The notes under the pieces: model-generated
Database searches by the model: none
Told to the model about the DNA's origin: nothing
Seen by the model: only the letters and a program-made list of their open reading frames with translations
Assembly (NCBI RefSeq): GCF_017948245.1
Contig: NZ_CP072865.1
Span: 2,443,501-2,507,500 of the forward strand
Direction: 5' to 3'
DNA: 64,000 bases
Source: Rhizobium sp. NLR16a
GTDB taxonomy: Bacteria > Pseudomonadota > Alphaproteobacteria > Rhizobiales > Rhizobiaceae
Made by a program: the position numbers and the translations under genes
Part shown: in pieces, positions 10,949 through 54,571 of the stretch
Layout: each line of letters starts with the position of its first letter
Numbering within the stretch: position 1 is the stretch's first letter

Positions 10949-10954
10949 CCATTT

Positions 10955-36324: not shown

Positions 36325-36487
36325 CAAGAAGTCCTCTGCTAGTCTGGAGTGGCTATCAACAAAACGAATCAAAGTTTAGCGGCAAACCGGTTCCTGACTA
36401 GTGCATAAAGAACACAATCTGCAACTTCGCTACATTAGCAGCTTGAAATGCGAATAGCCAACCCTTCAGTTCAGATGGTTAACGTCG

Positions 36488-37075: not shown

Positions 37076-37253
37076 TTCCACCTGCTGCCTTCTTATTCTC
37101 TCTCCGCAAGCTATCATTGCAGAATACAGTGGCCATGCCAAGTGATGGTCCTGTAACAGCATTTTGAGAATTATAGGTTATTCGCTTGCGATGTGTTGTT
37201 ATCTTCTCAAGGAAGTGCGATGAGCCTCACGTCGCGGTGACAAGGACCAGCAG

Positions 37254-38009: not shown

Positions 38010-38202
38010 GTGCAAAGGCCGCTAGCAACAGCCTCGGCCACAACCTGATTGTTGGGCCGTAGGGGCCGCGACGGCTGTTGAATCGATCGCCCAGGCCTAC
38101 TGCGATGTTTCGGGCCGTCGGTGCAACGCCGCACGCATTCCAGGGTCGATCTGCGGGAGGAAGAAGGATACTCATGTCAGGCCGAAGGCATTCCTTTCTG
38201 CT

Positions 38203-38350
38203 GGCTTGATGAGAAGCGCTTTACTTGCGGATCGCTTCGGCCAGAAAGCGGCGCATCGCCTCGCCGAAGGGTGGCCGCATCATATGTTCCGCCTCAACCA
38301 TCTTGCTCTGGTGATAGACGGCGCGCGGATGCGAGAAGGCGAGGAAACCG
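38203..38350. repeat. Intact copy of the direct repeat (calB 3' end)
   Basis: The segment covers the last codons of calB and 18 bases beyond its stop, and is repeated with about 89% identity at 32847-32995. Both copies have the same orientation, and the intervening 5.2 kb contains the SDR, acyltransferase, lipoprotein and YkuD genes. Confidence 0.85.
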
Positions 38351-39660
38351 AACTTGCCATGATAGGCGCCCATGCCGGAATGACCGACGCCACCGAACGG
38401 CAGGCCTTCAGCCGTAACATGGCTCATGCAATCGTTTATGGTCACGCCGCCGGAGGTCGTATTGTCAAGCACACGACGCTCCTCTTCGCCATCCTGGCTG
38501 AAGTAATAAAGGGCGAGCGGCCGCGGCCGGGCGTTGATGCGATCGATAACGTCGGCGACATCGCGATAGGGAAGAACCGGCAGAACCGGCCCGAAGATTT
38601 CCTCCTGCAGCGCGCGCATGTCGTCGCTGGGCTCGAGGATCAGGGTCGGCGGCATGCGGTAGGCCGGTTGCTGGGAGAGGTTCTCTCCTGCCGGATTGAT
38701 TTCGACGACGCGGGCGCCCTTGGCCCTGGCGTCGTCGACCAGGCCCTGCACGCGGTCATAATGACGGGCATTGACGATCGAAGTGTAATCAGGATTGTCC
38801 TTCAGCGTCGGATACATCGCACCGACCGCCGCGACCGCATGTTCGACAAAGGCTTCGACGCTTTCCTCAGGCACGTAGACATGATCCGGAGCCAGGCAGA
38901 TCTGGCCGGCGTTCAGCGTCTTGACGGTCATGACACGGCGCGCCGCGTCTGCGATATTGGCCGAACGGCCGACGATGACGGGCGACTTGCCGCCGAGTTC
39001 GAGCGTCAGAGGCGTGAGGTTTTCCGCCGCGGCCCGCATGACCTGATGGGCAATCGCCGTGCCGCCGGTGAAGATCAGATGGTCGAAGGCGAGCGAGGTG
39101 AAAGCGGTGCCGGTCGCCGGTCCGCCCTGCACCACCGCAATTTCCGTTTCGTCGAAGGAGCGGGCAACGAGTTCGGCCATCAGCGCGGCCGAAGCCGGCG
39201 TCACCTCCGACGGCTTGATCATGGCTCGGTTGCCGGCGGCGAGAATGCCCGCAAGCGGGGCAAGGGCGAGCTGATACGGGAAATTCCAGGGGCTCAGGAT
39301 GCCGACCACCCCCTTCGGCTGATAGACTACCTCGGCAACAGCGTCCGGGAACAATGCCTCGTGCTGCTCGGGTCTCAGCCATTCTGCAAGATGAGCCTTG
39401 GCATATTTGAGCGAACCGACGCAGGTGAAGACGTCGAGAAGCAGGCTCGCCTCGACGCTGCGACTTCCGAAATCCTCCGAGAGAGCCGCCGCAATCGCAT
39501 CCTTATGATCGACGAGAAGGGCGACGACACGGTCGATGCGATTAATGCGGGTCCCGATATCAGGCGGCCCCTCCTTGAGGAAGGACGCCCGTTGCCGGGC
39601 AAGCAGCGCCTTCATGGCGTCAGCACTGTTATCGGTGGCGATTGGGGTGACGGTGTTCAT
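38221..39660 (-). CDS. calB: CalB-like coniferyl aldehyde dehydrogenase
   Basis: A 479-residue aldehyde dehydrogenase of the coniferyl-aldehyde type: the motif GVVGILSPWNFPYQL, LELGGKSPVIV, and the catalytic cysteine in NAGQICLAPDHV, with VTAEGLPFGGVGHSGMGAYHGK at the C-terminus. It would oxidise coniferyl aldehyde to ferulate (or 4-coumaraldehyde to 4-coumarate). It is the last gene of the minus-strand operon fcs-ech-adh-calB and starts 22 bases after the adh stop. Its 3' end is duplicated at 32847-32995. Confidence 0.85.
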   Translation of the reverse strand: MNTVTPIATDNSADAMKALLARQRASFLKEGPPDIGTRINRIDRVVALLVDHKDAIAAALSEDFGSRSVEASLLLDVFTCVGSLKYAKAHLAEWLRPEQHEALFPDAVAEVVYQPKGVVGILSPWNFPYQLALAPLAGILAAGNRAMIKPSEVTPASAALMAELVARSFDETEIAVVQGGPATGTAFTSLAFDHLIFTGGTAIAHQVMRAAAENLTPLTLELGGKSPVIVGRSANIADAARRVMTVKTLNAGQICLAPDHVYVPEESVEAFVEHAVAAVGAMYPTLKDNPDYTSIVNARHYDRVQGLVDDARAKGARVVEINPAGENLSQQPAYRMPPTLILEPSDDMRALQEEIFGPVLPVLPYRDVADVIDRINARPRPLALYYFSQDGEEERRVLDNTTSGGVTINDCMSHVTAEGLPFGGVGHSGMGAYHGKFGFLAFSHPRAVYHQSKMVEAEHMMRPPFGEAMRRFLAEAIRK

Positions 39661-39682
39661 TGGTTCCTCCCTTAAAACGATG

Positions 39683-40789
39683 TCAGGCGGCCGGCTGGCG
39701 CACGACCGGTTTCAGCACAACGCCTCTTTCCGAGTCCTCCACCGCGCGGTTGATGTCGGCGAAATCGTAGAAGCTGACGAGCCTGTCGAACGGGAAGCGC
39801 CCTTGGCGATGAAGGTCGATCAACAAGGGGATCAGCACGTCGGGATTGGAATCGCCCTCGACGATGCCGCGCACCCGGCGTCCGCCGGACAGGATATGGG
39901 TGAGATCGAGCGTCAACGTTGCACCGTGAGGCGAGGCCCCGACGATGCCGCATGTGCCGCGCGGCGCCAACACCCGCACGCACTGGTCGATGACGGCGGG
40001 CACACCAGAGGCATCGATCGAATAGTCGACGCCAGCACCGGTCAGCGCCATGATCGCGGCGGCCGCGTCGCACGCCTTGCCATTGACGATGTCGGTCGCC
40101 CCGAGTTCCGCTGCAAGCGCCAGCCGCGTCTCGTTGACGTCGACGGCGATGATCCGTGACGCACCGACGACCCGCGCCGCCATCACGGCAGCCAGACCAA
40201 CAGAGCCCATGCCGAAAACTGCAAGTATTTTTCCAGGCTTGACGCTGAGGGCATTCATCACCGCGCCGGCGCCGGTCTGGATACCGCAGGCGAGCGGGCC
40301 AAGCAGCGCCAGATCCGCATCTTTCGGCACTTTCACGATATTGCGTTCATGGCAGAGTGCGTGGCTTGCGAAGGACGATTGTCCGAAAATGTTGCCATGA
40401 ATACGCTCTCCTTCGCGTGAGAGCCCGCTCGAACCGTCGGCGCGCGCACCGAAGAAGTTGCGCGGGAAGAACTCGTGGCAGTAGGTTTCTTCATGATCGT
40501 TGCAGCTCGGGCAATGACCGCAGGAATTGAAGGTCATAACCACGTGATCGCCCGGGACCACCTTGGCAACGCCCGGCCCGACACGTTCGACGATGCCGGC
40601 GCCCTCGTGGCCGAGCACGACCGGCTGCGGCACCGGCAGATGCTGGTCCCGCATGACGATATCGGTATGGCAAACGCCGGTCGCTATGACGCGAACCAGG
40701 ATTTCCCCCTCGCGCGGCTCCTCCAGATCGAGACTTTCCAATGAAAACGGCATATGCGGCGCACGCGCCACCGCGGCATGAATCTTCAT
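39683..40789 (-). CDS. Zinc-dependent aryl/benzyl alcohol dehydrogenase
   Basis: A 368-residue zinc MDR enzyme. Catalytic zinc ligands are in GVCHTD and GHEGAG, the structural zinc in [15 protein letters not shown] (four Cys), and the nucleotide-binding [20 protein letters not shown]. It resembles benzyl or aryl alcohol dehydrogenases (XylB type). In this operon it probably interconverts aromatic alcohol and aldehyde, such as vanillyl alcohol, or covers 4-coumaryl or sinapyl alcohols beside CalA. It lies between ech (31 bases) and calB (22 bases). Confidence 0.85.
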
Positions 40790-40820
40790 TCTATCCCCCT
40801 CCCGAGATCAATCCGCGCCC

Positions 40821-41642
40821 TCAGCCGCGCTTGTAGGCGCCGAGCCCCGGCTGATAGGTCTTGTCGTCGAGGAACTGCTTCAGCCCCTCATCGCGCCCTT
40901 TGGTCTTGTCGAGAAACAGCATCTGCTCCAACTTGGCGTAGATGTAATCGTCGGCGAGATCCCACGGCAGGTTGCGCACCCGCTTATAGGTGTCCTTGGC
41001 GGCCTTCAGCGTCACCGGGTTCTTTTCGAGCAGGCTCGCGCAAATCTTGCGAACCCGGTTTTCGAGCTCGGCGAGCGGCACGGCCTCGTTGACGAGACCC
41101 ATTTCGGCAGCCTTGCGCCCGCCGAAGAGTTCGCCGGTCATGATGTAGTAGAGGGCGTCGCGATGGCGCATCACCTCGGCCACCGCACGGGTGACATTGC
41201 CACCCGGCAAGATGCCCCAATTAATCTCGGAAAGGCCGAAATTCGCCTCCTCGGCGGCGATGGCAAGGTCGCAGGAAACGAGCGGTGTGAAGGCGCCGCC
41301 GAAGCACCAGCCATTGACCATGGCGATCGTCGGCTTTTCGAAATACATCAGCCGACCCCACCAGCCGCCGGATTGGCGCCGCGCCTTCAATGTGGCATCG
41401 CGCGGCTTGTCGTCATTGTCGCGAAAGTATTCCTTGAGATCCATTCCGGCGGACCAGGACTCGCCGGCGCCGCGCAGGACGAGCACGCCGCAGCGCTCAT
41501 CGCCCTCGAGCTCATCGAGCACCTCCAGCATCCGTGCATTCAAGGCCGGGTTCATCGCATTGCGCTTTTCCGGTCGGTTGAGAGTCACGAAAGCGATGCC
41601 GTTATCGAACTCGACCAGAACCGGCGATTGGTCTTCAGTCAT
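40821..41642 (-). CDS. ech: Ech, hydroxycinnamoyl-CoA hydratase-lyase
   Basis: A 273-residue crotonase-fold enzyme that hydrates feruloyl-CoA and cleaves it to vanillin and acetyl-CoA. The pattern LNRPEKRNAMNP, the SAGMDLKEYF region with Tyr72, and the FGLSEINWGI with Glu139 match the HCHL group, where Tyr and Glu act on the substrate; a later YAKLEQ Tyr also fits. The residue choice argues for hydroxycinnamoyl substrates rather than fatty enoyl-CoA. It starts 45 bases after fcs and continues to adh. Confidence 0.87.
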   Translation of the reverse strand: MTEDQSPVLVEFDNGIAFVTLNRPEKRNAMNPALNARMLEVLDELEGDERCGVLVLRGAGESWSAGMDLKEYFRDNDDKPRDATLKARRQSGGWWGRLMYFEKPTIAMVNGWCFGGAFTPLVSCDLAIAAEEANFGLSEINWGILPGGNVTRAVAEVMRHRDALYYIMTGELFGGRKAAEMGLVNEAVPLAELENRVRKICASLLEKNPVTLKAAKDTYKRVRNLPWDLADDYIYAKLEQMLFLDKTKGRDEGLKQFLDDKTYQPGLGAYKRG

Positions 41643-41687
41643 GAGGTCACTCCATTGGTTTCAGCGTGATTGCCGAGGGCCGTTTCA

Positions 41688-43265
41688 TCAGGCCTGTCGT
41701 TGACGGGTTTCGTCGGCATGAAGCTGGCGCAGAACATGTTTCTGCACCTTGCCGGAGGCGGTGCGGGGAACGGCTTCGACGAAGAGGATGTGCGCCGGGC
41801 GCTTGAAGGCGGCGAGCTTCGCCGCGCAATGGCCGGCAATCGCCTCGCCCGTCACCACGGCACCCGGCCGCAGTACGACATAGGCAACGCCGCATTCCCC
41901 CCACCTGTTGTCGGGAAAGCCGACGACCGCGACGTCGAGGATATCGGGATGGCTTGCGAGTACGGCCTCGACTTCGGCCGGATAGACATTCTCACCGCCG
42001 CTGATATACATATCCTTCAGCCGGTCGACGATGCGATAGAAGCCGTTTGCTTCGCACCGGCCGAGATCGCCGGTACGGTACCAGCCATCGGTGAAGGCGG
42101 CGGCGGTTTCCGCAGGCTTGTTCCAGTAGCCCGGCGTCACCGCCGGTCCACGCAGCCAGAGTTCGCCGATCTCGCCGCGACCAACGTCGTGGCCACCCTC
42201 GCCGACAATGCGGATGTCGACCAATGGTGCGGGAAGACCGACGCTGCCAAGATTGTCCTGCACCGCGCGCCGGTCGATCGGCACATGCAGCACCGTTCCG
42301 GCCTCGCTCATGCCGTAACCGTTGACCAGTACAACGCCGTCATCGAGATAGCTTTCGATCAGCGCCTGCGTCAGCGGCGCGCCGCCGACGAAGAGCGCCT
42401 GCAGGCCAGAGAGAGCCGCGGCGCTATAGGCGGGATCGTTGCGCAGAGCGAGGGCGATCTGCGGCACGGCGAAATAATGGGTGACGGCACGCTCACGCAA
42501 GACGGCCAGCGTGCGCGCCGGAGTGAAGCGGTCGCAGATGACGAGCGTACCACCCAGCATCAATGTGGTTCGAGCCACGGCAATGAGCCCGATCGTGTGG
42601 AAGAACGGCAGATCGCACAAAGCGACCGATGCCGGCCCGATCTCTCCGACGAAGGAAAAATTGATGGCGGCAAAGAAAGCATTGCGGCCGGTGATGACGA
42701 CGCCCTTCGGCCGCCCTGTCGTGCCCGAGGTGTAGAGAAGGACACACGCCCGATCGGCATCTCCGGACACCGGATCGGCGGAGGCGCTCGCCTCGATGCG
42801 GGCCGCAAGCCCGGCTGGGCCATCTGCCGTCGAGATCACCGCCATGTCAGGATCGGTATCGGCAAGGGTCGCCGCAACAGCCGAAAACTCCTCGTCGCAG
42901 ACCAGGAGCGCCGGCGCGCAATCGGCAAGGATCGGCAGCAGTTCGGCGGCGCCGAGACGCCAGTTGAGCGGCACATAAACGGCGCCGACGCGCTGGCAGG
43001 CAAAAGCCAGCACGATCGAATCGATCGAGTTGCGCGCCAGCATGGCGATCCGCGCCCCGTCCCGGCGCGCTCCGAGCATATCATCGAGGAAACCGGCGCA
43101 TCGGGCGATCCGCATATCGAGCTCGGCATAGGTAAGCTCTCGGCCGGTCGCGATCTCGAACAGGGCCTGTCGATCCGGCGCGACACGGGCGCGGTAAAGG
43201 ATGGGATCATCCGCCACCAGTCCGCAATCGACGGACGAAGACTTTCCGGAAAGGCAATGCGCCAT
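41688..43265 (-). CDS. fcs: Feruloyl-CoA synthetase-like AMP-dependent ligase
   Basis: A 525-residue acyl-CoA synthetase of the ANL superfamily. Seen: LLYTSGTTGRPKGVV (P-loop), the GYGMSEAG motif, WYRTGDLG and the C-terminal domain with YISGGENVYPAEVE and PRTASGKVQKH (catalytic Lys). It would make feruloyl- or coumaroyl-CoA from the acid. The ATG at 43265 is preferred since GGGAGG lies six bases upstream; longer in-frame starts run into the promoter palindrome. It is the first gene of the operon to ech, adh and calB. Confidence 0.83.
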   Translation of the reverse strand: MAHCLSGKSSSVDCGLVADDPILYRARVAPDRQALFEIATGRELTYAELDMRIARCAGFLDDMLGARRDGARIAMLARNSIDSIVLAFACQRVGAVYVPLNWRLGAAELLPILADCAPALLVCDEEFSAVAATLADTDPDMAVISTADGPAGLAARIEASASADPVSGDADRACVLLYTSGTTGRPKGVVITGRNAFFAAINFSFVGEIGPASVALCDLPFFHTIGLIAVARTTLMLGGTLVICDRFTPARTLAVLRERAVTHYFAVPQIALALRNDPAYSAAALSGLQALFVGGAPLTQALIESYLDDGVVLVNGYGMSEAGTVLHVPIDRRAVQDNLGSVGLPAPLVDIRIVGEGGHDVGRGEIGELWLRGPAVTPGYWNKPAETAAAFTDGWYRTGDLGRCEANGFYRIVDRLKDMYISGGENVYPAEVEAVLASHPDILDVAVVGFPDNRWGECGVAYVVLRPGAVVTGEAIAGHCAAKLAAFKRPAHILFVEAVPRTASGKVQKHVLRQLHADETRQRQA

Positions 43266-43307
43266 TTTTCCTCCCATGCCAGCCGCTCCTCCGCGGCCGA
43301 CAATTTT

Positions 43308-43322
43308 GTATGTAACACATAC
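43308..43322. promoter_or_regulatory. GTATGT-x3-ACATAC palindrome, likely MarR operator
   Basis: A perfect 6-bp inverted repeat with a three-base spacer, 43 bases upstream of the fcs ATG, in AT-rich DNA on the minus-strand promoter side. The divergent marR gene starts 142 bases away. MarR proteins that sense hydroxycinnamoyl-CoA bind palindromes of this size in fcs/ech promoters of other bacteria, so this is a plausible operator for 43464-43949; binding is inferred. Confidence 0.6.
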
Positions 43323-43463
43323 TAATATTTTTTTAGGAGGATGCAAGAGGCTGCTCGCCGCAAATCCATCCACTCCGACAAGCTCTGGGAAATCTTCGGG
43401 GCGGATATTGACTAACCTGCTGATTTTGATGGTTATGGCGCCTTGACTGGGCGAGAATGAATA

Positions 43464-43949
43464 ATGGCCGGAAAACCACCGCAGGATGATTTTGAGAGCG
43501 AGGATGTTCCGGCGACCCCGTCACTCGACGTCGGCCGGCTTGGCAATCTCCTCGGTTTTCATCTGCGTATGGCGCACGTCGCGATCTACCGCGACTTCGC
43601 TGAAACCATGGAGGAGCTGGGGCTGACGCAAAAACAGCTCGCGGTGATGGAACTGCTTGCAGTCAATGCCGGTGCATCGCAGATCGACCTTGCCAATACG
43701 CTCGGCACCGACCGCGCGACCATGATGGCCCTCGTCAACCGGCTCGCAGGCCGCGACCTCATCGAGCGCCGCCCTTCAGCTACGGACCGGCGCCGCCAGG
43801 AACTGCATCTGACGATGGCCGGTCACGCCATGCTCGCGCGGGCGCGCAAGCTGATCGATGCGCACGAACAGCGTTTCATCGACCGGTTTTCGCAAGATGA
43901 AATGGATGCTCTGCTGGCTGCGCTGAAGCGGATATATAAGCGCGACTGA
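43464..43949 (+). CDS. MarR-family regulator of hydroxycinnamate genes
   Basis: A 161-residue MarR protein. The winged helix is visible from LGLTQKQLAVMELLAVNAGASQIDLANTLGTDRATMMALVNRLAGRDLIERR, with the wing SATDRRRQELHLT. It faces fcs across the palindrome 43308-43322, the usual arrangement for repressors of ferulate/coumarate degradation that respond to the CoA thioester. The N-terminal DDFESEDVPATP is a flexible extension. Target and ligand are inferred from neighbours. Confidence 0.85.
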   Translation: MAGKPPQDDFESEDVPATPSLDVGRLGNLLGFHLRMAHVAIYRDFAETMEELGLTQKQLAVMELLAVNAGASQIDLANTLGTDRATMMALVNRLAGRDLIERRPSATDRRRQELHLTMAGHAMLARARKLIDAHEQRFIDRFSQDEMDALLAALKRIYKRD

Positions 43950-44027
43950 AACCCGCTTCCGCCCTTTGCCGGCTTGCCAGAGCAGAACAGGAGCCTTGGC
44001 AACTCCGGCGAAGCAATGCGCGCAGAC

Positions 44028-44927
44028 CTAAGGCCAGTCCGCATAACCCGAGGAGAGCATACTGTTTTCCGAGCCGGCGGAAGCGCGGGCGATCTCTCTG
44101 TAGCCCGCAGGGGAAAGGCCGGTCCTGCGCTTGAAGAAATGGCTGAAATAGGTCGGGTCGCGGAAGCCGAGGCTGTCGGAGATTTCCTGGATGTTGCGGG
44201 CCGAGCGCTCCAATCTCAGCTTTGCCTCCTGCACCACGCGCTCGTGCAGAAGCTGGATCGGCGAGCGGCCGAGCGTCCTTTGACAGATCGAATGCAGCCG
44301 GTCGGCGGTGACGCCCAATTCCGCGGCATAGTCGCTGATCGGCCGGTGCTGGCGGAAACCGGCCTCGACCAGCTGGCGATAGCGCTGCAGGATCGATCCA
44401 GTTTCGCCCTGCCCACGCGGCTCACTTCTTTCGCCGTCGCTGCCGCGCCACAGCGTCATCAGGATCAGCCTGAGATAGGCCGAGACCACCATCCAGGAGG
44501 CCCGGGAGGGATCGCCGAGTTCCCGCACGAAGCCCGAAATCAATGGACCGATTTCGGCCACCAGCAAGGGATCCCGTGCCTCGACCAGCTTGCGCTGCTC
44601 GATGAGGAGGCGCAGCGAGTAGGATTCCACCTTGTCGCCGATCGCGTCGACCATGATCTGCGCCGAGGCGCCGATGAGATGGGCGGCACTCCCGGCAGCA
44701 ATCGACAGATCGCAGCGTGCCTGCGGCGGTAGGAAGGCAAGCAGCGGCCCGTGCAGCGGCCGATCTTCGCCGCTCTCGAAATGAAGCTCGGCGGCGCCTT
44801 CGCCGAGAAGCAGGAAATGATGGAAATCGGCATAGAGCCCTTTTTGCAGACGGATGCGCCGATGCGACAGCGACGGCGCGTGCCAATCGCCCCTGGCATA
44901 GTGATGAATGCCTCCGTCCGTGGCCAA
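44028..44927 (-). CDS. AraC-family transcriptional regulator
   Basis: A 299-residue AraC-type regulator. An N-terminal cupin-like ligand domain (FHHFLLLGEGAAELHFESGE) precedes a C-terminal double helix-turn-helix with ISDYAAELGVTADRLHSICQRTLGRSP and IQEISDSLGFRDPTYFSHFFKRRTGLSPAGYR. The start is TTG at 44927, supported by GGAGGAG eight bases upstream. It is divergent from the vdh1-liv operon, which it probably activates in response to an aromatic inducer; similarity to regulators of vanillate, benzoate or 4-hydroxybenzoate genes is plausible. Confidence 0.85.
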   Translation of the reverse strand: MATDGGIHHYARGDWHAPSLSHRRIRLQKGLYADFHHFLLLGEGAAELHFESGEDRPLHGPLLAFLPPQARCDLSIAAGSAAHLIGASAQIMVDAIGDKVESYSLRLLIEQRKLVEARDPLLVAEIGPLISGFVRELGDPSRASWMVVSAYLRLILMTLWRGSDGERSEPRGQGETGSILQRYRQLVEAGFRQHRPISDYAAELGVTADRLHSICQRTLGRSPIQLLHERVVQEAKLRLERSARNIQEISDSLGFRDPTYFSHFFKRRTGLSPAGYREIARASAGSENSMLSSGYADWP

Positions 44928-45162
44928 AGCCGCTCCTCCGCTTCTGTCAAATAGTGCCGCAATCGCCAGATAATGACAATATTAACCCAATAAATCGCAT
45001 TCCATCCGCCATCGATCGGCGTAACCTTCTCGTCATCAGCCTTTGGGAGGAGGCATTTCATCAGACGCACGAACGCTTAAGCGGCCTCTAGGCCGTCGCG
45101 TCCGCTCGTCTTTTCCCGTGGCAATAATGCAGGCGTCAGCACTTGGCGCCAGCATGTGACGA
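44928..45162. promoter_or_regulatory. AraC-vdh1 divergent promoter region
   Basis: A 235-base gap. It contains AT-rich stretches (44981-45000) and a short palindrome CGGCCT-CT-AGGCCG at 45082-45095, which is about 68 bases before the vdh1 start and could be a regulatory site. No other motif is certain. Confidence 0.4.
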
Positions 45163-46626
45163 ATGGGTGAAACCGTGTTTTCGGCAAAGCTGATGATCAA
45201 CAACGAGGCAATGGATGCGTCCGAGGGGGCCACCTTCGAACGCATCGATCCGCTGACCGGCGACGTCGCGACGATCGCTTCGGCAGGATCCGTCGCCGAC
45301 ATGAGGCGGGCTGCCAATGCCGCCGCTGCCGCCTTTCCCGATTGGTCGCAGACCGGCCCGGGCGAACGGCGCAGACTGCTCAACGCCGCCGCCGAACTTC
45401 TCGATGCCCGTTCGCCGGAACTGATTGCCGCCATGACCGGCGAAACCGGCGCCACGAGGCAATGGGCGGCGATCAATTGCCGGCTCGGCGCCGATATTTT
45501 CCGCGAGGCGGCGGCGATGACCACGCAAATTTCGGGTGAACTCATTCCATCGGGCATTCCCGGAAACCTTGCCATGGCGGTGCGCCAGCCGGCCGGCGTC
45601 TGCGTCGGCATCGCGCCCTGGAACGCGCCCATTATTCTCGGCACCCGCGCCGTCGCCATGCCGCTTGCCTGTGGCAACACTGTCATCCTGAAAGCCTCCG
45701 AACTCTGCCCGAAGACCCACGGCCTGATCGGCGACATCCTCCGCGACGCCGGCTTTCCCCGCGGCGTCGTCAACGTCGTCTCCAATGCGCCGAGCGATGC
45801 CGCCGCCGTCGTTGATGCCCTGATCGCCCATCCGGCTGTGCGCCGCATCAACTTCACCGGCTCCACCCGTGTCGGCAGGATCATCGCGGAAAGCGCGGCA
45901 CGGCATCTGAAGCGCTGCCTGCTCGAACTCGGCGGCAAGGCACCATTCATCGTTCTTGCCGACGCCGATATCGACGAGGCAGTGGGTGCCGCCGCCTTCG
46001 GCGCCTTCATGAACCAGGGCCAGATCTGCATGTCCACAGAGCGGATCATCCTGATGGACGAGATCGCCGATAATTTCGTCGGCAAATTCCGGGCGAAGGC
46101 CGAGACCCTCGTCGCGGGCCATCCCGGGGACGGCAATACGCCGCTCGGCACGCTGATCAACGCCGAAGCGGCGCGCCGCGTGAAGTCGCTCGTTGAGGAT
46201 GCCATGCAGAAGGGCGCGGCGCTCGTCTGCGGCGGCCGGCCCAACGGCACGCTGATGGATGCGACCGTCATCGATCACGTGACGCCTGCCATGCGCATCT
46301 ACCGCGAGGAAAGTTTTGGGCCGGTCGCGGCGATCGTCCGGGTCGGCAGCGTCGACGAGGCGGTGACGGTTGCCAACGACAATGAATACGGGCTCTCGGC
46401 GGCGGTTTTCAGCGCCGACATCAATGCGGCGATGGCTGTTGCCATGCGGCTTGAATCCGGCATCTGCCACATCAACGAGGCCACGGTTTCCGACGAGCCG
46501 CAAATGCCGTTCGGGGGCGTCAAATCAAGCGGCTACGGCCGCTTCGGCGGCAAGGCCGCAATCGATGAATTCACCGAGCTCAGATGGATCACCATGGCAT
46601 CGGGAAAACGACACTACCCGATCTGA
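45163..46626 (+). CDS. Vanillin/aromatic aldehyde dehydrogenase (paralogue 1)
   Basis: A 487-residue aldehyde dehydrogenase. Seen: GVCVGIAPWNAPIILGTRA, NFTGSTRVG, LELGGKAPFIVL, active-site Cys in NQGQICMST and PFGGVKSSGYGRFGG. It belongs to the vanillin/salicylaldehyde/4-hydroxybenzaldehyde dehydrogenase group (Vdh type) rather than to retinal or betaine types. It is very similar to the gene at 52292-53737. It is first in the vdh1-livKGFHM-calA-vdh2 operon. The ATG at 45163 is used; a GTG at 45175 is an alternative. Confidence 0.83.
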   Translation: MGETVFSAKLMINNEAMDASEGATFERIDPLTGDVATIASAGSVADMRRAANAAAAAFPDWSQTGPGERRRLLNAAAELLDARSPELIAAMTGETGATRQWAAINCRLGADIFREAAAMTTQISGELIPSGIPGNLAMAVRQPAGVCVGIAPWNAPIILGTRAVAMPLACGNTVILKASELCPKTHGLIGDILRDAGFPRGVVNVVSNAPSDAAAVVDALIAHPAVRRINFTGSTRVGRIIAESAARHLKRCLLELGGKAPFIVLADADIDEAVGAAAFGAFMNQGQICMSTERIILMDEIADNFVGKFRAKAETLVAGHPGDGNTPLGTLINAEAARRVKSLVEDAMQKGAALVCGGRPNGTLMDATVIDHVTPAMRIYREESFGPVAAIVRVGSVDEAVTVANDNEYGLSAAVFSADINAAMAVAMRLESGICHINEATVSDEPQMPFGGVKSSGYGRFGGKAAIDEFTELRWITMASGKRHYPI

Positions 46627-46690
46627 CTTCAGATCGGGATGAACACAGGGAACGGGCTGGGAGGCCCGCATCAGGAGGAGGAACGATTTC

Positions 46691-48007
46691 ATGAACGGCA
46701 TTTTCCGCAACGGCAAACTCAACGCGGCAACTCTCACCCGCCGCTCTTTCATCGCATCGGCTGCCGCAGGCGGTGCGGCGCTGGCGCTTTCCGGCCGCAC
46801 GGCTTTTGCCCAAGGCGGTACGCTGAAGGTCGGCTTCATCAGCCCGCGCACCGGCCCTCTCGGCGGCTTCGGCGAGACCGACGGCTATGTGCTGGAACTG
46901 GCGCGCAAGGCGCTGGCGAACGGCCTGCAGGCGGGCGGCAAGACCTGGAAGGTGGAGATACTCGACCAGGACACCCAGTCAGATCCCTCCCGCGCCGGGC
47001 AACTGGCGAAAGACCTGATCAACAATGAGGCGATCGACCTGATGCTCGCCGTCTCGACGCCCGAAACCATCAATCCGGTGGCCGATGCCTGCGAGGCGGC
47101 AGGCATTCCCTGCCTTTCCACGGTCATGCCCTGGGAAGCCTGGTATTTCGGCCGCGGCGCCAAGCCCGGCGCGCCCTCGCCCTTCAAATGGACCTATCAT
47201 TTCGGCTTCGGCGTCGAAGAGTTCCACAAGGCCTATGTCTCGCAGTGGAGCCTGATCGAGACCAACAAGAAGGTCGGCGTCATGTATCCGAACGATGCCG
47301 ACGGCAATGCGATCCGCGCCCATCTGGCTCCGGCACTTGCCAAGGCGGGCTTCACCATTGTCGACCCAGGCGCCTATGAAACCGGAACCACCGATTTTTC
47401 GGCGCAGATCGCTCTCTTCCGGCAGGAGGGTGTGGAGATCTTCAACTCCTTTCCGATCCCGCCCGATTTCGCCGCCTTCTGGCGTCAGGCGGCACAGCAG
47501 GGCCTGACCCAGCAGATCAAGATCTGCCAGGTCGCGAAAACCGGCCTCTTTCCATCCGACATCGAGGCGCTCGGCGATCTCGGCCTCAACATCGGCAGCG
47601 CCGCCTACTGGCACAAGGCCTTCCCTTACAAATCGACGCTGACCGGCGTCTCCGGAACCAAACTTGCCGACGGCTATGAAACGGCCAGCGGCAAGCAGTG
47701 GACGCAGCAGCTCGGCGCCAGCCTGGCGCTGCTCGATGCCGGCTTCGATGCGCTGAAGGCGAGCACCGACGTCAAGAGCAAGGAGGCGGTCGCCAAGGCG
47801 CTCGCCACGCTGAAAACCACGACGATCGCCGGCAAGGTCGACTTCACTAGCGGTCCCGTCGCCAATGTTTCTCCCGGGCCGATCATCGGTACGCAGTGGG
47901 TGAAGGCGCCGGAGGGCTCGAAATTCGCGCTCGACTACGTCGTCACCGAAAACGCCACCGATCCCAATGTCCCGGTCGGCGCCAAGCTGACCGCCTACAA
48001 CGGATAA
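46691..48007 (+). CDS. LivK-type ABC substrate-binding protein for aromatics
   Basis: A 438-residue periplasmic binding protein of the branched-chain amino acid type. The N-terminus TRRSFIASAAAGGAAL is a Tat-type signal, then two lobes: LKVGFISPRTGPLGGFGETDGY and VGVMYPNDADGNAIRAHLAP. Binding proteins of this class that bind phenylpropanoids and aromatic acids (CouP type) are known in Rhodopseudomonas, and the gene context points the same way. GGAGGAGG precedes the ATG. Substrate inferred from context. Confidence 0.83.
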   Translation: MNGIFRNGKLNAATLTRRSFIASAAAGGAALALSGRTAFAQGGTLKVGFISPRTGPLGGFGETDGYVLELARKALANGLQAGGKTWKVEILDQDTQSDPSRAGQLAKDLINNEAIDLMLAVSTPETINPVADACEAAGIPCLSTVMPWEAWYFGRGAKPGAPSPFKWTYHFGFGVEEFHKAYVSQWSLIETNKKVGVMYPNDADGNAIRAHLAPALAKAGFTIVDPGAYETGTTDFSAQIALFRQEGVEIFNSFPIPPDFAAFWRQAAQQGLTQQIKICQVAKTGLFPSDIEALGDLGLNIGSAAYWHKAFPYKSTLTGVSGTKLADGYETASGKQWTQQLGASLALLDAGFDALKASTDVKSKEAVAKALATLKTTTIAGKVDFTSGPVANVSPGPIIGTQWVKAPEGSKFALDYVVTENATDPNVPVGAKLTAYNG

Positions 48008-48012
48008 CAGCA

Positions 48013-48768
48013 GTGCAGAGGCAAGAAGCGCAAAGACGGCCGGGGGAAGCTTTTCTCTCGGCCAAGGGGATCCACAAGCGGTTCGGCGCGCTTGTCGTGC
48101 TGGAGAACCTGGATTTCTCCATGGGCGACGGCGAGGCGGTCGGCATCGTCGGGCCGAACGGCGCGGGCAAGACGACGTTGCTCAGCGTGCTCGCCGGCGC
48201 CTCCCCGCCGAGTGCGGGAACCGTCGTCTTCGACGGCGCCGACGTCACCAACCGGACGGCGGCGGAGCGCTGCCGTTCCGGGCTCGTGCGGACGCATCAG
48301 ATTCCCAAGCCCTTTGGCGGCATGACCACCTTCGAAAATGTCTTCGTCGCCGCCTCGCACGGCAATGCGGCAAGCCGGGACGAGGCCTATGAGCGTGTGG
48401 TGGATTCGCTGTCGCTCTGCGGCATGCTCGGCGTGGCTAACCGTTCCGCCGACACGCTCGGCCTGCTCGACCGCAAACGCCTGGAGCTTGCCCGTGCGCT
48501 CGCCACGCAGCCGAGGCTGCTGTTGCTCGACGAGATCGGCGGCGGCCTGACCGATGGCGAGGCGAGCGAACTCGTCGAAACCATCCTGGAATTGCGCCGC
48601 CGTGGCATCGGCATCGTCTGGATCGAGCATATCGTCCATATCCTGCTGCAGGTGGCGGAACGGCTGATCTGCATGGATGCCGGCCGGATCATCGCCGACG
48701 GCGAACCGAAGACTGTCATGAGCGATGCGGAAGTGGTCAAGGCCTATCTTGGAGGGGCGCCCGCATGA
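48013..48768 (+). CDS. LivG-type ABC ATPase
   Basis: A 251-residue ATPase of the LivG group. Walker A is GPNGAGKTT; the usual signature position reads LGLLDRKRLELA, a variant of the LSGGQ helix, and Walker B is LLLLDEI with a Glu-Ile. The start is GTG at 48013, five bases after livK, chosen because the LivG fold begins about 12 residues on. Its stop overlaps livF by four bases. The absent LSGGQ is discussed in the findings. Confidence 0.8.
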   Translation: MQRQEAQRRPGEAFLSAKGIHKRFGALVVLENLDFSMGDGEAVGIVGPNGAGKTTLLSVLAGASPPSAGTVVFDGADVTNRTAAERCRSGLVRTHQIPKPFGGMTTFENVFVAASHGNAASRDEAYERVVDSLSLCGMLGVANRSADTLGLLDRKRLELARALATQPRLLLLDEIGGGLTDGEASELVETILELRRRGIGIVWIEHIVHILLQVAERLICMDAGRIIADGEPKTVMSDAEVVKAYLGGAPA

Positions 48769-49493
48769 GCCTGCTTTCCATCGACAATCTCGACGTCCGC
48801 CACGGCCTGCTGCAGGCGGTGCGCGGGGTCAGTTTCGACCTGGCCAAGGGCGAGGTGCTGGCGCTGGTCGGCGCCAATGGCGCCGGCAAGACGACGCTGC
48901 TGAGATCGATCGCCGGCGCCCACCTGCCCGCCGCCGGCCGCGTTCTTCTCGGCGATGAAGACCTGGCTGCAGTCCCCTCCCACAAGCGGATCGCCAAGGG
49001 CATCGCCCTGGTCCCGGAAGGCCGGCGCCTGTTTGCGCAGATGACCGTCGAAGAGAACCTGCTTCTCGGCAAGAGCTGCGGGCGCAAGGGCGAGTGGAAC
49101 ATCGACCGTGTGCTCGACGCTTTTCCGAACCTGAAACCCCGCCGGCACGCCAAGACCGGGCACCTCTCCGGCGGGGAGCAGCAGGCGACCGCCATCGGCC
49201 GGGCGCTGATGAGCAATCCCGATATTCTTCTCTTGGACGAGGTCTCGCTAGGGCTTTCGCCTCTCGTCGTTGACCGCGTCTATACCCAGCTGCAGGCGCT
49301 CCTGACTTCGGGAACAACGATCGTGCTGGTCGAGCAGGATCTTGGCCGCGCCATGAGGGTCGCCGGCCGGGTCATCTGCATGCTGGAAGGCCGCATCGTG
49401 CTCGACAGGCCGGCAGCCGCCGTCACCCGCGACGAAGTCACCAAGGCCTATTTCGGACTGCACCGGACAGCCGGCGAAAGGAGCGCATCATGA
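48765..49493 (+). CDS. LivF-type ABC ATPase
   Basis: A 242-residue ATPase of the LivF group. Walker A GANGAGKTT, signature LSGGEQQ, Walker B LLLDEVSLGLSP, and the family segment IALVPEGRRLFAQMTVEENL. It pairs with the LivG-type ATPase. It overlaps its neighbours by four bases on both sides. Confidence 0.9.
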   Translation: MSLLSIDNLDVRHGLLQAVRGVSFDLAKGEVLALVGANGAGKTTLLRSIAGAHLPAAGRVLLGDEDLAAVPSHKRIAKGIALVPEGRRLFAQMTVEENLLLGKSCGRKGEWNIDRVLDAFPNLKPRRHAKTGHLSGGEQQATAIGRALMSNPDILLLDEVSLGLSPLVVDRVYTQLQALLTSGTTIVLVEQDLGRAMRVAGRVICMLEGRIVLDRPAAAVTRDEVTKAYFGLHRTAGERSAS

Positions 49494-50422
49494 TCAACAC
49501 CCTGATCCAGGGCCTCCTGCTCGGCGGTTATTACGCCGTCATCGCCTGCGGCCTGTCCTTCATGTTCTCCGTCATGCGGATCATCAATCTCGCCCATGGC
49601 AGCCTGGCGGTCGCCGCCGCCTACGGGCTGTGGCTGCTCGCCGCCAAAGCCGGCATCCCGCCTTTTGCCGGCCTGCTGATCGTGCTGCCCGTCATGGCGG
49701 TGATCGGTTGGCTGCTGCAGCGCTTCATCCTCGAACGCAGCGCCCGCGGCGGCGCGCTGCTGCCGATTCTCACGACCTTCGGCCTGTCGATCGTCATCGA
49801 CAATCTGCTGTTCGAACAGTTCGGCGCCGACACACGCTCGCTCGCGCCCTTCATCGGTAATCTCTCCTACGCATCCTGGCAGCTGCCCGGCCACATCTTC
49901 GTCGGCGAGCTTGCCGTGATGATGATGGTTACGGCGATCCTCATTCTCGGCGGGCTGCAGTTCTTCCTCGGCCGCTTTGCGCTCGGCCGCGCCATTCGCG
50001 CCACCGCCGAAGATCCCGATACGGCAGGGCTCGTCGGCATCGATGCGCGCAGGGTGAATGCGGTCGCCACCGCCATTACCATGGTCACGATCGGCATCGC
50101 CGGCGCCTTTCTCGGCATGCGGGCGACCTTCAGTCCCTATGCCGGCGGCCCGCAGCTGCTCTTTGCCTTCGAGGCCGCGGTCATCGGCGGAGCGGGATCG
50201 CTCTGGGGCACGCTTGCCGGCGGCATCGTCCTCGGCCTTGCCCAATCGCTCGGCGCGCAATTGCATCCCCAGGGCTTCCTGATCGGCGGCCATGCCGTGT
50301 TCCTGCTGGTGCTTTTCATCCGGCTGTCCCGCTCCCGCCCGCTGGTTCTCGACAAGATCGCAGCGCTTCTGAAACCCCGCGCCCTCCTCAACCCTCGCGC
50401 ACGCCATCGGAGCCCGACATGA
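49490..50422 (+). CDS. LivH-type ABC permease
   Basis: A 310-residue membrane permease of the LivH type with about eight helices, starting LIQGLLLGGYYAVIACGLSFMFSVMRIINLAHG, the canonical N-terminus. It has the EDPDTAGLVGIDARRVNAVA cytoplasmic coupling loop. Belongs to the vdh1-liv operon; it overlaps livF and livM by four bases. Confidence 0.92.
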   Translation: MINTLIQGLLLGGYYAVIACGLSFMFSVMRIINLAHGSLAVAAAYGLWLLAAKAGIPPFAGLLIVLPVMAVIGWLLQRFILERSARGGALLPILTTFGLSIVIDNLLFEQFGADTRSLAPFIGNLSYASWQLPGHIFVGELAVMMMVTAILILGGLQFFLGRFALGRAIRATAEDPDTAGLVGIDARRVNAVATAITMVTIGIAGAFLGMRATFSPYAGGPQLLFAFEAAVIGGAGSLWGTLAGGIVLGLAQSLGAQLHPQGFLIGGHAVFLLVLFIRLSRSRPLVLDKIAALLKPRALLNPRARHRSPT

Positions 50423-51444
50423 CATTCGTCGCCAACGGAATATCGATCGAGCGCTGGACGACCTCGTCGCGGGTGGCGCTTGGCTCCATGGCCGCGGTGT
50501 TTGCGCTGCTGATCCTCGCCCCCGCCGTGCTTGGTGCCGGTGCGATCGACCGGATGACCGCCCTGTTCATCTATGTGATCCTGGCCGCCATGTGGAATGC
50601 GCTTGCCGGTTTCGGCGGGCTGGTCTCGGTCGGCCAGCAGGTGTTTTTCGGCCTCGGCGCCTATTTCACCATTCGGCTCGCCGATGCGGGGCTCGATCCC
50701 TTCGTCTCGGTCTTTGCCGCGGCGATCGTGATCGGCGCGCTGTCGATCCCGCTTTCGCTGTTCATGCTGCGGCTGAAGGGCGGCGAGTTTGCGATCGGCA
50801 TGTGGGTCGTGGCCGAACTCGCGCATCTGCTCGTCAATCTCGACCGGCTGATCCAGGGGGAAACGGGAACCTCGCTGATTTCGCTCAACGTCTATGACAG
50901 CGGCACGCGGCGGGCGGCGATCTATTGGCTTGCCCTCACGTCCATGGCTGCCTTGCTCGGCGCGCTCTTCATGCTGATGCGCAGCCGCGCGGGTGCGGCG
51001 ATGCAGGCGACCCGCGACAATGAGGAGGCGGCGGCCTCGGTCGGCGTGCGGGTGACCGCCACCAAGCGGCTGCTCTTCGTACTCGCCGCCTTCGGCATCG
51101 CCATCGCCGGCGGCTTGTGGCTGGCGACCGCCACGACCTTCCAGCCGAAAACCTATTTCAGCGTCCAGTGGACGGCCTACATGATCTTCATGGTGCTGGT
51201 CGGCGGGATCGGCAGGTTCGAGGGCGCGATCCTCGGCGCCATCCTGTTCTTCGTCATCGAGACTTTCTTCGGCAGCGCCGGCGTCTGGTATCTGATCGGG
51301 CTTGGCGCCACCGCGCTGATCTTCTCGCTCTATCTGCCGCGCGGCCTTTGGGGCGAAGTCGAGCGCCGCTTCGATTTCCAGCTTCTGCCCGTCGGCTACC
51401 GGCTGAAACTGCCCGGGCCGACGAAAATCAAATGGGAAGAATGA
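50419..51444 (+). CDS. LivM-type ABC permease
   Basis: A 341-residue LivM permease with about nine helices. Signature GFGGLVSVGQQVFFGLGAYFTIRL and the coupling loop TRDNEEAAASVGVRVTATKRLLFVLAAF are present. It completes the liv-type importer, which with the binding protein probably imports phenylpropanoid acids or related aromatics. It is followed by calA after 39 bases. Confidence 0.92.
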   Translation: MTFVANGISIERWTTSSRVALGSMAAVFALLILAPAVLGAGAIDRMTALFIYVILAAMWNALAGFGGLVSVGQQVFFGLGAYFTIRLADAGLDPFVSVFAAAIVIGALSIPLSLFMLRLKGGEFAIGMWVVAELAHLLVNLDRLIQGETGTSLISLNVYDSGTRRAAIYWLALTSMAALLGALFMLMRSRAGAAMQATRDNEEAAASVGVRVTATKRLLFVLAAFGIAIAGGLWLATATTFQPKTYFSVQWTAYMIFMVLVGGIGRFEGAILGAILFFVIETFFGSAGVWYLIGLGATALIFSLYLPRGLWGEVERRFDFQLLPVGYRLKLPGPTKIKWEE

Positions 51445-51483
51445 ACCTACCTGCTTCCCGTTTTCTTGCGAAAGGTGAAATCC

Positions 51484-52269
51484 ATGCTTTTTGGTAAAAC
51501 AATCCTGGTGACCGGCGTCGCCTCCGGCATCGGCGCCCGGACGGCGGAACTGGCCGGCCAGATGGGCGCCGAGGTCATCGGCGTCGATGTGCGCGAACCG
51601 GCAAATGCAAGTGCCGCCTTCATCAAAGGCGATCTCTCCACGCCATCGGGCGTTGCCGAGATTGTCGCGCAGCTGCCGTCGCGTCTCGATGCGCTCGCCA
51701 ATGTCGCCGGCCTTTCCGGCAATACCGGCGTCGTCTCGACGCTCGCCGTCAATTTCTACGGGCTGCGCGCCCTGTCGGAAGCCGTGGCACCCCGCCTGCG
51801 CGAAGGCGGCGCCATCGTCAACGTCGCCTCGATCGCCGGTTACGGCTGGCGCGCCAATCTCGAGCGGGCCAAATCGCTGACCTCGATCGAAGGCTTTCCA
51901 GATGTGGCGGCCGTTGCCGCCGAACATGGCCTCAAGGACGAGCAGGGTTATCCGCTCTCCAAGGAGCTGCTGCTGCTCTGGACCATGCGCGCCGCCCACC
52001 AGCCCCTGTTCAAGAACCGCGGCATCCGCGTCAATGCGGTGAGCCCCGGGCCGGTGGAAACGCCGATCCTCAAGCAGTTCCGCGCCGTGCTCGGCGACGC
52101 CAGGGTCGACAGCGACATCACCCGCGTCGGCCGCGCCGGCACATCAGCCGATATCGCGCCCGCCGTGCTCTTCCTCTGCTCGGATGGCGGACGCTGGATC
52201 AATGGCGCCAATCTTGCCGCCGACGGCGGCCTCGAAGCATCGATCAATGCCGAGGTTCTCGGCTTCTAG
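51484..52269 (+). CDS. calA: CalA-like coniferyl alcohol dehydrogenase (SDR)
   Basis: A 261-residue SDR close to the Pseudomonas CalA group: VTGVASGIGARTAELAG, GDLSTPSGVAEIVAQLPSRLDALANVAG, NVASIAGYGW, YPLSKEL with Tyr and Lys, and the C-terminal RWINGANLAADGGLEAS, each resembling CalA. It would oxidise coniferyl alcohol to coniferyl aldehyde, the substrate of CalB. The ATG at 51484 follows AAAGGTGAAA. It sits in the other operon from calB, between livM and vdh2. Confidence 0.83.
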   Translation: MLFGKTILVTGVASGIGARTAELAGQMGAEVIGVDVREPANASAAFIKGDLSTPSGVAEIVAQLPSRLDALANVAGLSGNTGVVSTLAVNFYGLRALSEAVAPRLREGGAIVNVASIAGYGWRANLERAKSLTSIEGFPDVAAVAAEHGLKDEQGYPLSKELLLLWTMRAAHQPLFKNRGIRVNAVSPGPVETPILKQFRAVLGDARVDSDITRVGRAGTSADIAPAVLFLCSDGGRWINGANLAADGGLEASINAEVLGF

Positions 52270-52291
52270 TTCTTTCTCAAGGAGACACACG

Positions 52292-53737
52292 ATGAATATT
52301 TCCCTGCTCATAAACGGCGCCGACCGGGCCGCCACCAGCGGCCGGACCTATGACCGGATCGACCCCTTCACCGAAAAGCTTGCGAGCCGCGCGGCCGCCG
52401 CGAGCCTCGAGGATGTCGCTGCGGCCGTCGACGCCGCTTCCGCCGCCTTCGGCGCCTGGTCGAAGACCGGGCCCGGCCAGCGCCGCGCCATCCTGATGAA
52501 GGCCGCCGACATCATGGATTCGAAAGCGGCCGAATTTACCCGGCTGATGATCGAGGAAACCGGCGCCACCGCGCCCTGGGCCGGCTTCAACGTCATGCTC
52601 GCCGCCAACATTCTGCGCGAGGCGGGCGCCATGACGACGCAAATTTCAGGCGAAATCATCCCGTCCGACAAACCCGGATCGCTTTCCATGGGCGTTCGCC
52701 AGGCGGCCGGCGTGTGCCTCGCAATCGCGCCGTGGAATGCGCCCGTCATCCTCGCCACCCGCGCCATCGCCATGCCGATCGCCTGCGGCAACACCGTCAT
52801 CCTCAAGGCATCCGAACAATGCCCGGGCACGCACCGGCTGATCGCCACGGCGCTGACCGAAGCCGGCCTGCCGGCCGGCGTCATCAATGTTCTGACCAAT
52901 GCGCCGGAGGATGCGCCTGAGATCGTCAACGCACTGATCGCCCATCCGGCCGTCAGGCGCGTCAACTTCACCGGCTCGACCAAGGTCGGCAGGATCATTG
53001 CCGAGACCTGCGGCAAATATCTCAAGCCCGCCTTGCTCGAGCTCGGCGGCAAGGCGCCGCTGGTCATTCTCGACGACGCCGATATCGACGGCGCCGTCAA
53101 TGCCGCGATCTTCGGCGCCTTCATGCATCAGGGCCAGATCTGCATGTCGACCGAGCGGATCATCGTCGACACGGCGATCGCCGATCAGTTCGTCGCCAAA
53201 CTGGTCGCCCGCGCCAGCCAGCTGCCGGCCGGCGACCCGCGCGGCCATGTCGTTCTCGGTTCACTGATCAGCCTCGACGTCGCCAGGAAAATGGAGGAGC
53301 TGATCACCGATGCCACCGCCAAGGGCGCAAAACTCGTGGCCGGCGGCAAGCGCTCCGGCACCGTGGTCGAGGCGACGCTGCTCGATCACGTCACCCCCGA
53401 CATGCGCGTCTATGCGGAGGAATCCTTCGGCCCGGTCAAGCCGATCATTCGCGTCGCCGGCGAGGAGGAAGCAATCCGCATCGCCAACGACACAGAATAC
53501 GGCCTGTCATCCGCCGTCTTCAGCCGCAACATCCAGCGGGCGATGGCGGTTGCAGCCCGCATCGAATCCGGTATCTGCCACATCAACGGCCCGACGCTGC
53601 ACGATGAAGCGCAAATGCCCTTCGGCGGCGTCAAGGGCAGCGGCTACGGCCGCTTCGGCGGCAAGGCAGCGATTGCCGAATTCACCGACCTACGCTGGAT
53701 CACGGTGGAGGATTCTGCCCAGCACTATCCCTTCTGA
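52292..53737 (+). CDS. Vanillin/aromatic aldehyde dehydrogenase (paralogue 2)
   Basis: A 481-residue aldehyde dehydrogenase very similar to 45163-46626: GVCLAIAPWNAPVILATRA, NFTGSTKVG, LELGGKAPLVIL, HQGQICMST active-site Cys and PFGGVKGSGYGRFGG. AAGGAG lies about eight bases before the ATG at 52292. The two copies bracket the importer and CalA; one may act on vanillin and the other on 4-hydroxybenzaldehyde or another aldehyde. It is the last gene of the operon before the gmk border. Confidence 0.83.
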   Translation: MNISLLINGADRAATSGRTYDRIDPFTEKLASRAAAASLEDVAAAVDAASAAFGAWSKTGPGQRRAILMKAADIMDSKAAEFTRLMIEETGATAPWAGFNVMLAANILREAGAMTTQISGEIIPSDKPGSLSMGVRQAAGVCLAIAPWNAPVILATRAIAMPIACGNTVILKASEQCPGTHRLIATALTEAGLPAGVINVLTNAPEDAPEIVNALIAHPAVRRVNFTGSTKVGRIIAETCGKYLKPALLELGGKAPLVILDDADIDGAVNAAIFGAFMHQGQICMSTERIIVDTAIADQFVAKLVARASQLPAGDPRGHVVLGSLISLDVARKMEELITDATAKGAKLVAGGKRSGTVVEATLLDHVTPDMRVYAEESFGPVKPIIRVAGEEEAIRIANDTEYGLSSAVFSRNIQRAMAVAARIESGICHINGPTLHDEAQMPFGGVKGSGYGRFGGKAAIAEFTDLRWITVEDSAQHYPF

Positions 53738-53908: not shown

Positions 53909-54571
53909 CTAGAGCGACGGCGTCTCTTCCAGCAATTCGCGGACGAAATCGAACATGCCGTGGCGGCGGTCACGGCGCAGGCGTTCGGCCTTGACGATCG
54001 ACTGGACGGCGTCGAAGGCGGTGTTGAGATCGTCATTGACGATGACATAATCATATTCGCGCCAGTGGGCAATCTCGGCGCGGCTGTTGGCCAGACGCGT
54101 CTGAATGACCGCCTCGGAATCCTCGGCACGGCGATGCAGTCGCGACTGGAGCTCCGTCATGGTCGGCGGCAGCACGAAGATCGAGACGACGTCGGCCGAC
54201 ATCTTCTCCTGTAACTGCTGGGCGCCCTGCCAATCGATATCGAAGAGCATATCGCGACCTTCGGCCATGGCCTGCTCGACCGGCTCGCGCGGCGTACCGT
54301 AGAAATTGCCATGCACTTCGGCCCATTCGAGCAGTGCGTCGCTATCGCGCAACCGCTCGAACTCGCGCACGCTTTTAAAATGGTAATGCACGCCTTCGAC
54401 CTCGCTCGGGCGGCGTTGGCGCGTGGTGACGCTGACGGAGAGGCCGATATGCTTGTCGGTCTCCAGAAGCGTGCGCGCAATTGTGGACTTGCCGGCGCCG
54501 GATGGCGACGAAATTACAAGCATCAAACCGCGACGGGCGATCTGTACGGGCGAGGATTTCGCCGGTTTCAT
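53909..54571 (-). CDS. gmk: Gmk, guanylate kinase
   Basis: A 220-residue guanylate kinase converting GMP to GDP. P-loop [31 protein letters not shown] (GMP-binding), the GNFYGTP motif and [12 protein letters not shown] are present. Starts three bases after the yicC stop. It closes the fab-acp-mltG-yicC-gmk series. Confidence 0.97.

Follow-up and report, generated by a model that had tools for sequence, protein, structure and literature searches.

A chromosomal Rhizobium gene cluster with a predicted side-chain route for hydroxycinnamyl alcohols and hydroxycinnamates

In Pseudomonas, fcs, ech and vdh serve in the route that leads from coniferyl alcohol to vanillate. Here we describe a locus with genes of these types in a stretch of 64,000 nucleotides from Rhizobium sp. 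NLR16a (contig NZ_CP072865.1, positions 2,443,501 to 2,507,500), referred to below as the window. Fourteen genes occupy positions 38221-53737, both of which are exact gene ends. An earlier note on this DNA had listed this gene set, and it is borne out: the open reading frames (ORFs) lie where the note had placed them, with the importer genes in the order LivK-G-F-H-M and with a MarR and an AraC regulator. Judging from the sequence, we think it about 85% probable that these genes form a side-chain catabolic module, CoA-dependent and non-beta-oxidative, that acts on 4-hydroxycinnamyl alcohols and 4-hydroxycinnamates.

The same 14 genes are present on pRL12 of Rhizobium johnstonii 3841, where the NCBI names include coniferyl aldehyde dehydrogenase, p-hydroxycinnamoyl CoA hydratase/lyase and coniferyl-alcohol dehydrogenase. 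That cluster differs from ours in being plasmid-borne and in carrying TRAP transporter and cyclase genes between marR and araC, which are 78 bp apart in the window; the two Fcs proteins are 86% identical. A protocatechuate TRAP importer, pRL120498-500, has been reported in strain 3841 (PMC3333776). We infer that it is the three-gene TRAP system found between araC and marR on pRL12. Root exudate of maize is reported to raise calA, calB, fcs and ech in R. phaseoli Ch24-10 (PMC8581550). The likeness to the window lies in the four shared gene names, and importer and Vdh genes are not mentioned in the passages of that paper that were considered. Within the open-licence literature examined it alone names these four genes in Rhizobium, other papers may also do so, and the passages considered of PMC11103875, PMC5789663 and PMC5739047 make no mention of the cluster.

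Further afield, the couAB/CouR system of R. palustris resembles the locus in its CoA ligase, hydratase/lyase, MarR repressor and nearby ABC importer (PMC3223731, PMC10458429). It differs in that a cinnamyl alcohol branch is not described in those sources, and the MarR protein of the window is only moderately CouR-like. The order of reactions is shared with the Pseudomonas route of calA and calB (PMC7054097), fcs, ech and vdh. Agrobacterium fabrum SpG8-1b is likewise a member of the Rhizobiaceae with a MarR repressor and a feruloyl-CoA synthase, but it uses a beta-oxidative route and has its own vanillate demethylase, Atu1420 (PMC7797058), whereas the window locus has neither a thiolase nor a demethylase. 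An Agrobacterium-type beta-oxidation was dropped as an explanation because there is no 3-hydroxyacyl-CoA dehydrogenase or beta-ketothiolase among the 14 genes.

The genes are arranged in two runs, one on the minus strand (fcs, ech, a zinc alcohol dehydrogenase gene and a calB-like aldehyde dehydrogenase gene, with intergenic gaps of 45, 31 and 22 bp) and one on the plus strand (vdh1, livK, livG, livF, livH, livM, a short-chain dehydrogenase/reductase (SDR) gene and vdh2, spaced by -4 to 64 bp). The marR gene is divergent from fcs, and araC from vdh1. In the scheme that we propose for NLR16a, each enzymatic step of which is predicted, a phenylpropanoid would be imported by LivKGFHM, and an alcohol would be converted to the aldehyde by the CalA-type SDR, the zinc alcohol dehydrogenase or both. 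CalB would then yield ferulate or p-coumarate and Fcs the CoA thioester, which Ech would hydrate and split, releasing acetyl-CoA, to give vanillin or 4-hydroxybenzaldehyde. Vdh1 and Vdh2 would convert these to vanillate or 4-hydroxybenzoate. The earlier note had proposed a whole route from coniferyl alcohol to vanillate; the best reading remains a route that oxidises and shortens the side chain of an alcohol to yield a benzoic acid, but coniferyl alcohol to vanillate would be one branch of it only.

The identity of Ech as a hydroxycinnamoyl-CoA hydratase/lyase (HCHL) is, in our judgement, firm. In an NCBIfam search, where the best 25 models per protein were considered, it exceeds the cut-off of the equivalog model NF006588 (469 versus 276 bits), and in a search of solved structures it matches the HCHL structures 6l3o and 2j5i. 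It carries KEYF at 70, SEINWG at 138 and DYIYAK at 232, aligned with 6l3o and holding the expected active-site Tyr, Glu and Tyr, which we take to be as in the P. fluorescens enzyme. A Ser of 6l3o (in GGFSPLV) is replaced by Thr, as in 6p5u. The type of Fcs is supported by its AMP-binding domains, with an ANL fold, and by its nearest solved chains, 8weu (named a fatty-acyl-CoA synthase, 331 bits) and 8wev (a feruloyl-CoA synthetase, 329 bits; next 289), its substrate specificity being predicted. Vdh2 falls in the salicylaldehyde/vanillin dehydrogenase group (salicylaldehyde dehydrogenase 6qhn, 593 bits; vanillin dehydrogenase 9ihb, 577; 4jz6, 551; next 348); Vdh1, which has an Aldedh match, is placed there only by its 62% identity to Vdh2. 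The SDR scores above the cut-off of the NF009092 'coniferyl-alcohol dehydrogenase' subfamily (366 versus 242 bits). The zinc enzyme has ADH_N and ADH_zinc_N domains with zinc motifs, and its nearest solved relatives are 5tnx (440 bits) and benzyl alcohol dehydrogenase 1f8f (383 bits). The CalB-like protein is a candidate on account of its domain (Aldedh, 301 bits, with ELGGKSP at 221 and GQIC at 252) and of the NCBI name of its pRL12 ortholog, coniferyl aldehyde dehydrogenase. All motifs sought in seven of the enzymes are present.

An Fcs ortholog of at least 60% identity was found in 11 of 37 same-genus genomes, the source genome included. Ten relatives were fetched: four have all 14 genes, and in five the order matches as far as the stretch extends. 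The remaining one (G010) has marR-fcs-ech beside vdh2-calA-livMHFGK-vdh1, with calB and the zinc alcohol dehydrogenase gene not seen in its stretch. The gene set is more than a chance assembly, because the identical set occurs in identical order in relatives. At 45% identity or more for each gene, marR accompanies 58 of 61 named fcs loci from a genome scan, ech 51, vdh2 27, and calB with the zinc alcohol dehydrogenase gene 26; counts of liv genes at these loci are lower bounds, as many stretches stop before them. In a Devosia metagenome contig (L131), marR is followed by fcs-ech-livKGFHM-calA-vdh2 in one direction; no other observation ties the importer, SDR and Vdh to fcs-ech so well.

Ninety-nine plasmid records have a best Fcs match of at least 60% identity, 98 of them at 80-90%, and among the matches listed all 30 records are from Rhizobium. 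By these counts the cluster is neither unusual nor special to NLR16a, occurring in many Rhizobium strains, usually on a plasmid and here on the chromosome. It is a real, well-conserved and mostly ordinary gene set, a chromosomal member of a known Rhizobium set with already named enzyme types. The module is patchy across the genus and found on different replicons, and it offers a compact, testable gene set for the handling of monolignols and hydroxycinnamates by a root-associated Rhizobium.

The best solved chain for the MarR protein is R. palustris CouR, 6c28 (88 bits; next best 47), a repressor released by p-coumaroyl-CoA (PMC9594313, PMC10458429). It scores below the cut-off of NF053777, the Saro_0803 family regulator (156 versus 200 bits). 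The spacer between fcs and the divergent marR holds a palindrome, GTATGT-N3-ACATAC, which recurs with at most two mismatches in 58 of 59 fcs-marR spacers (58 loci plus the window; no mismatch in 15, one in 36 and two in 7). The exception is the Devosia contig, where the spacer is only 15 bp long owing to the start assignment used. Base-shuffled spacers gave such a match in 20 of 2950 cases. MarR probably represses fcs-ech-ADH-calB from this site until hydroxycinnamoyl-CoA binds, which is an explicit operator prediction. There is no second copy in the window at up to two mismatches; the vdh1-liv-calA-vdh2 run is therefore probably controlled by AraC. The araC-vdh1 spacer (44928-45162) contains long conserved blocks in the eight sequences compared, including GGGAGGAGG, which resembles a ribosome-binding site and lies about 110 bp ahead of the vdh1 start used, and this may mark a leader or an alternative start. 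Five loci (L111, L113, L114, L115 and L117) have Fcs and MarR orthologs and the conserved palindrome, with no ech match in the stretch, and these possibly use a different side-chain route.

Several observations count against the proposed module. For Fcs, Vdh, CalB and LivK, none of the 25 models considered for each gave a score above a specific curated cut-off, and calB and the zinc alcohol dehydrogenase gene look optional, given their number among the fcs loci. The best solved match of the SDR is a 3-alpha-hydroxysteroid dehydrogenase, at just 78 bits, and that of CalB is the steroid aldehyde dehydrogenase 9nxl (419 bits). A steroid or bile-acid side-chain reading based on these two matches was dropped, since Ech plainly belongs with the HCHL enzymes and the nearest relative of Fcs is a feruloyl-CoA synthetase. 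The palindrome precedes only one of the two gene runs, and the 58 of 59 spacers are not independent events, as they include close relatives. Because one or more matches at two mismatches or fewer also turn up in 26 of 100 shuffled windows, the weight of the palindrome lies in its conservation and position. No convincing vanillate demethylase was found in the genome by searches for LigM and VanA_C, P450 demethylases not being searched. One Rieske gene does exceed the VanA_C Pfam cut-off (72 versus 23.5 bits), a lenient cut-off that is also matched in Synechococcus and Thermotoga controls. Its score is less than half that of the VanA-like genes found in two further genomes of Rhizobium (159 and 162 bits); it has no NCBIfam match, and its neighbours are amidohydrolase-like and GST-like ORFs, families assigned by eye.

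The alcohol step and the importer each have a rival explanation. A single CalA gene had been named by the earlier note; a CalA-type SDR is indeed present, but it is not the unique candidate, as the zinc alcohol dehydrogenase stands beside it. In P. putida KT2440 the zinc-type 'CalA' PP_2426 is a vanillin reductase, which had no activity towards coniferyl alcohol in whole-cell assays, although cell extracts gave some activity on it in vitro, and another zinc enzyme, PP_3839, oxidises coniferyl alcohol (PMC7054097). Since these zinc enzymes differ in role, either alcohol dehydrogenase of the window could act, in either direction. It is conceivable, if rather unlikely, that both of them and CalB form a broad aryl-alcohol and aldehyde detoxification set, some working as reductases, that is attached to a ferulate/p-coumarate module. 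The behaviour of PP_2426 in whole cells, the closeness of the zinc enzyme to 5tnx and benzyl alcohol dehydrogenase, and the optional status of calB and the zinc gene would fit such a set. The SDR argues otherwise, as it passes the coniferyl-alcohol dehydrogenase model and is kept within the liv-vdh2 run even in Devosia, and so do the activities of PP_3839 and of PP_2426 extracts. As for the importer, LivK has only distant relatives among solved binding proteins (best match 4q6w, E 4e-13), so the sequence does not reveal its ligand, and a transporter of other cargo, e.g. branched-chain amino acids or another aromatic acid, might be linked to the cluster by chance only. We think this improbable. 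In six of the 10 fetched relatives, those whose stretch covers both sides, vdh1 and the SDR gene flank the liv genes, which in Devosia come directly after ech; moreover, p-coumarate and ferulate are ligands of a binding protein that R. palustris encodes close to genes for p-coumarate-CoA ligase and hydratase/lyase (PMC3223731). Of the dedicated uptake system that had been suggested, the tie to the route by conserved neighbourhood holds, but the substrate is putative.

What becomes of the products bears on a further alternative: that the enzymes act as proposed, but on mainly p-coumaryl alcohol and p-coumarate, with coniferyl alcohol and ferulate a side activity that ends in vanillate. Both pobA (678 bits against a cut-off of 539) and pcaH (358 bits against 296) are present in the genome, the latter with a weaker adjoining match (110 bits) that is probably pcaG. 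The p-coumaryl branch therefore looks complete: 4-hydroxybenzoate would pass through PobA to protocatechuate dioxygenase, both encoded elsewhere. LigM (NF047885) was not found in the NLR16a genome (best 66 bits, cut-off 580), and among the cluster-bearing relatives it is over cut-off in just three of 10, compared with 10 of 10 for pobA. That said, some carriers probably use the guaiacyl branch, as a fourth relative reaches 521 bits for LigM; the pobA count was taken in cluster-bearing genomes only, so it is not an association. We regard this narrower substrate range as a substantial possibility, at somewhat below even odds. For the broader module that we favour, the lack of a convincing demethylase means that vanillate may be an end product, accumulating or leaving the cell, and a clear prediction follows, namely that in NLR16a the breakdown of guaiacyl compounds would go no further than vanillate. 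Of the use of lignin monomers that the note had put forward, the p-coumaryl side would thus be served by pobA and pcaH, whereas growth on guaiacyl monomers is conjectural. More speculatively, the module, once moved from plasmid to chromosome, could have a split purpose, with p-hydroxyphenyl units completely consumed through PobA and protocatechuate dioxygenase and guaiacyl units only trimmed to released vanillate. If so, the bacterium would clear away phenylpropanoids that serve the plant as signals or act as toxins, and would draw no growth from them.

Two other demethylase candidates were set aside. A GcvT-like stand-alone protein on C3 scores 35 bits as LigM, against the cut-off of 580, and is nearest to a trimethylamine N-oxide demethylase model. 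Between marR and araC of seven relatives the ORFs are cyclase, sulfite-oxidase-like, hydrolase, LysR, desaturase-like and SDR-like; no vanillate demethylase was recognised there by eye, no family search having been run. At locus L059 a Rieske oxygenase-like gene (9963-11557) is present as two overlapping ORFs in different frames, adjoining an amidohydrolase-like ORF.

Table 1. Features of the locus, in window coordinates, and the basis of each assignment.
Feature	Position	Strand	Basis
21.1-kb insertion relative to near relatives: cluster plus ~5.4 kb of other genes	32770-53908		rsmA/ksgA-gmk comparison
calB-like aldehyde dehydrogenase, coniferyl aldehyde dehydrogenase candidate	38221-39660	-	Aldedh domain, motifs, name of pRL12 ortholog
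Zinc-dependent aryl-alcohol dehydrogenase	39683-40789	-	ADH_N and ADH_zinc_N, zinc motifs, solved relatives
ech, p-hydroxycinnamoyl-CoA hydratase/lyase	40821-41642	-	NF006588, HCHL structures
fcs-like hydroxycinnamate-CoA ligase	41688-43274	-	AMP-binding domains, nearest solved chains
Palindrome GTATGT-N3-ACATAC, proposed MarR operator	43308-43322		Conservation in fcs-marR spacers
MarR regulator, CouR/FerC-like	43464-43949	+	Best solved chain CouR
AraC-family regulator, divergent from vdh1	44028-44927	-	HTH_18, 73 bits
vdh1, aromatic aldehyde dehydrogenase	45163-46626	+	Aldedh, 504 bits; identity to vdh2
livK-like solute-binding protein, RRxF motif near N terminus	46691-48007	+	Peripla_BP_6, 142 bits
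livG-like ATPase, start uncertain	48046-48768	+	Family search
livF-like ATPase	48765-49493	+	Family search
livH-like permease	49490-50422	+	Family search
livM-like permease	50419-51444	+	Family search
SDR, coniferyl-alcohol dehydrogenase (CalA) family	51466-52269	+	NF009092
vdh2, vanillin/aromatic aldehyde dehydrogenase	52292-53737	+	Solved relatives; near marR-fcs-ech in relatives

The cluster lies within an insertion that is bounded by the 3′ ends of two genes, rsmA/ksgA (31942-32769) and gmk (53909-54571). The insertion is absent from all six relatives compared by DNA, in which the two gene ends are 0-75 bp apart, and no cluster genes were found in the eight gmk regions of relatives that were fetched. 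The G+C content is 64% in the cluster and 56% in the leading 5.4 kb of the insert. Coverage of the region by the 25 plasmid records listed is 72-73%, approximately the share of the cluster, and no integrase or transposase was found among the window proteins searched. The cluster probably reached the chromosome from a plasmid, and the chromosomal site between rsmA/ksgA and gmk is what appears to be new here.

The first part of the insert (32770-38220) encodes two SDRs, one with a SEC-C motif, and an L,D-transpeptidase domain protein. Also encoded there are a protein that weakly matches 2-oxoacid dehydrogenase acyltransferase and an isoprenylcysteine methyltransferase-like protein that is over its NCBIfam cut-off. 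The gap between marR and araC is a hot spot in L047, L048, L050, L051, L054, L055 and L075, with differing cargo of about 2-10 kb. Mostly judged by eye, the cargo in relatives includes a cyclase, a sulfite-oxidase-like protein, a LysR regulator, a hydrolase and a TRAP importer.

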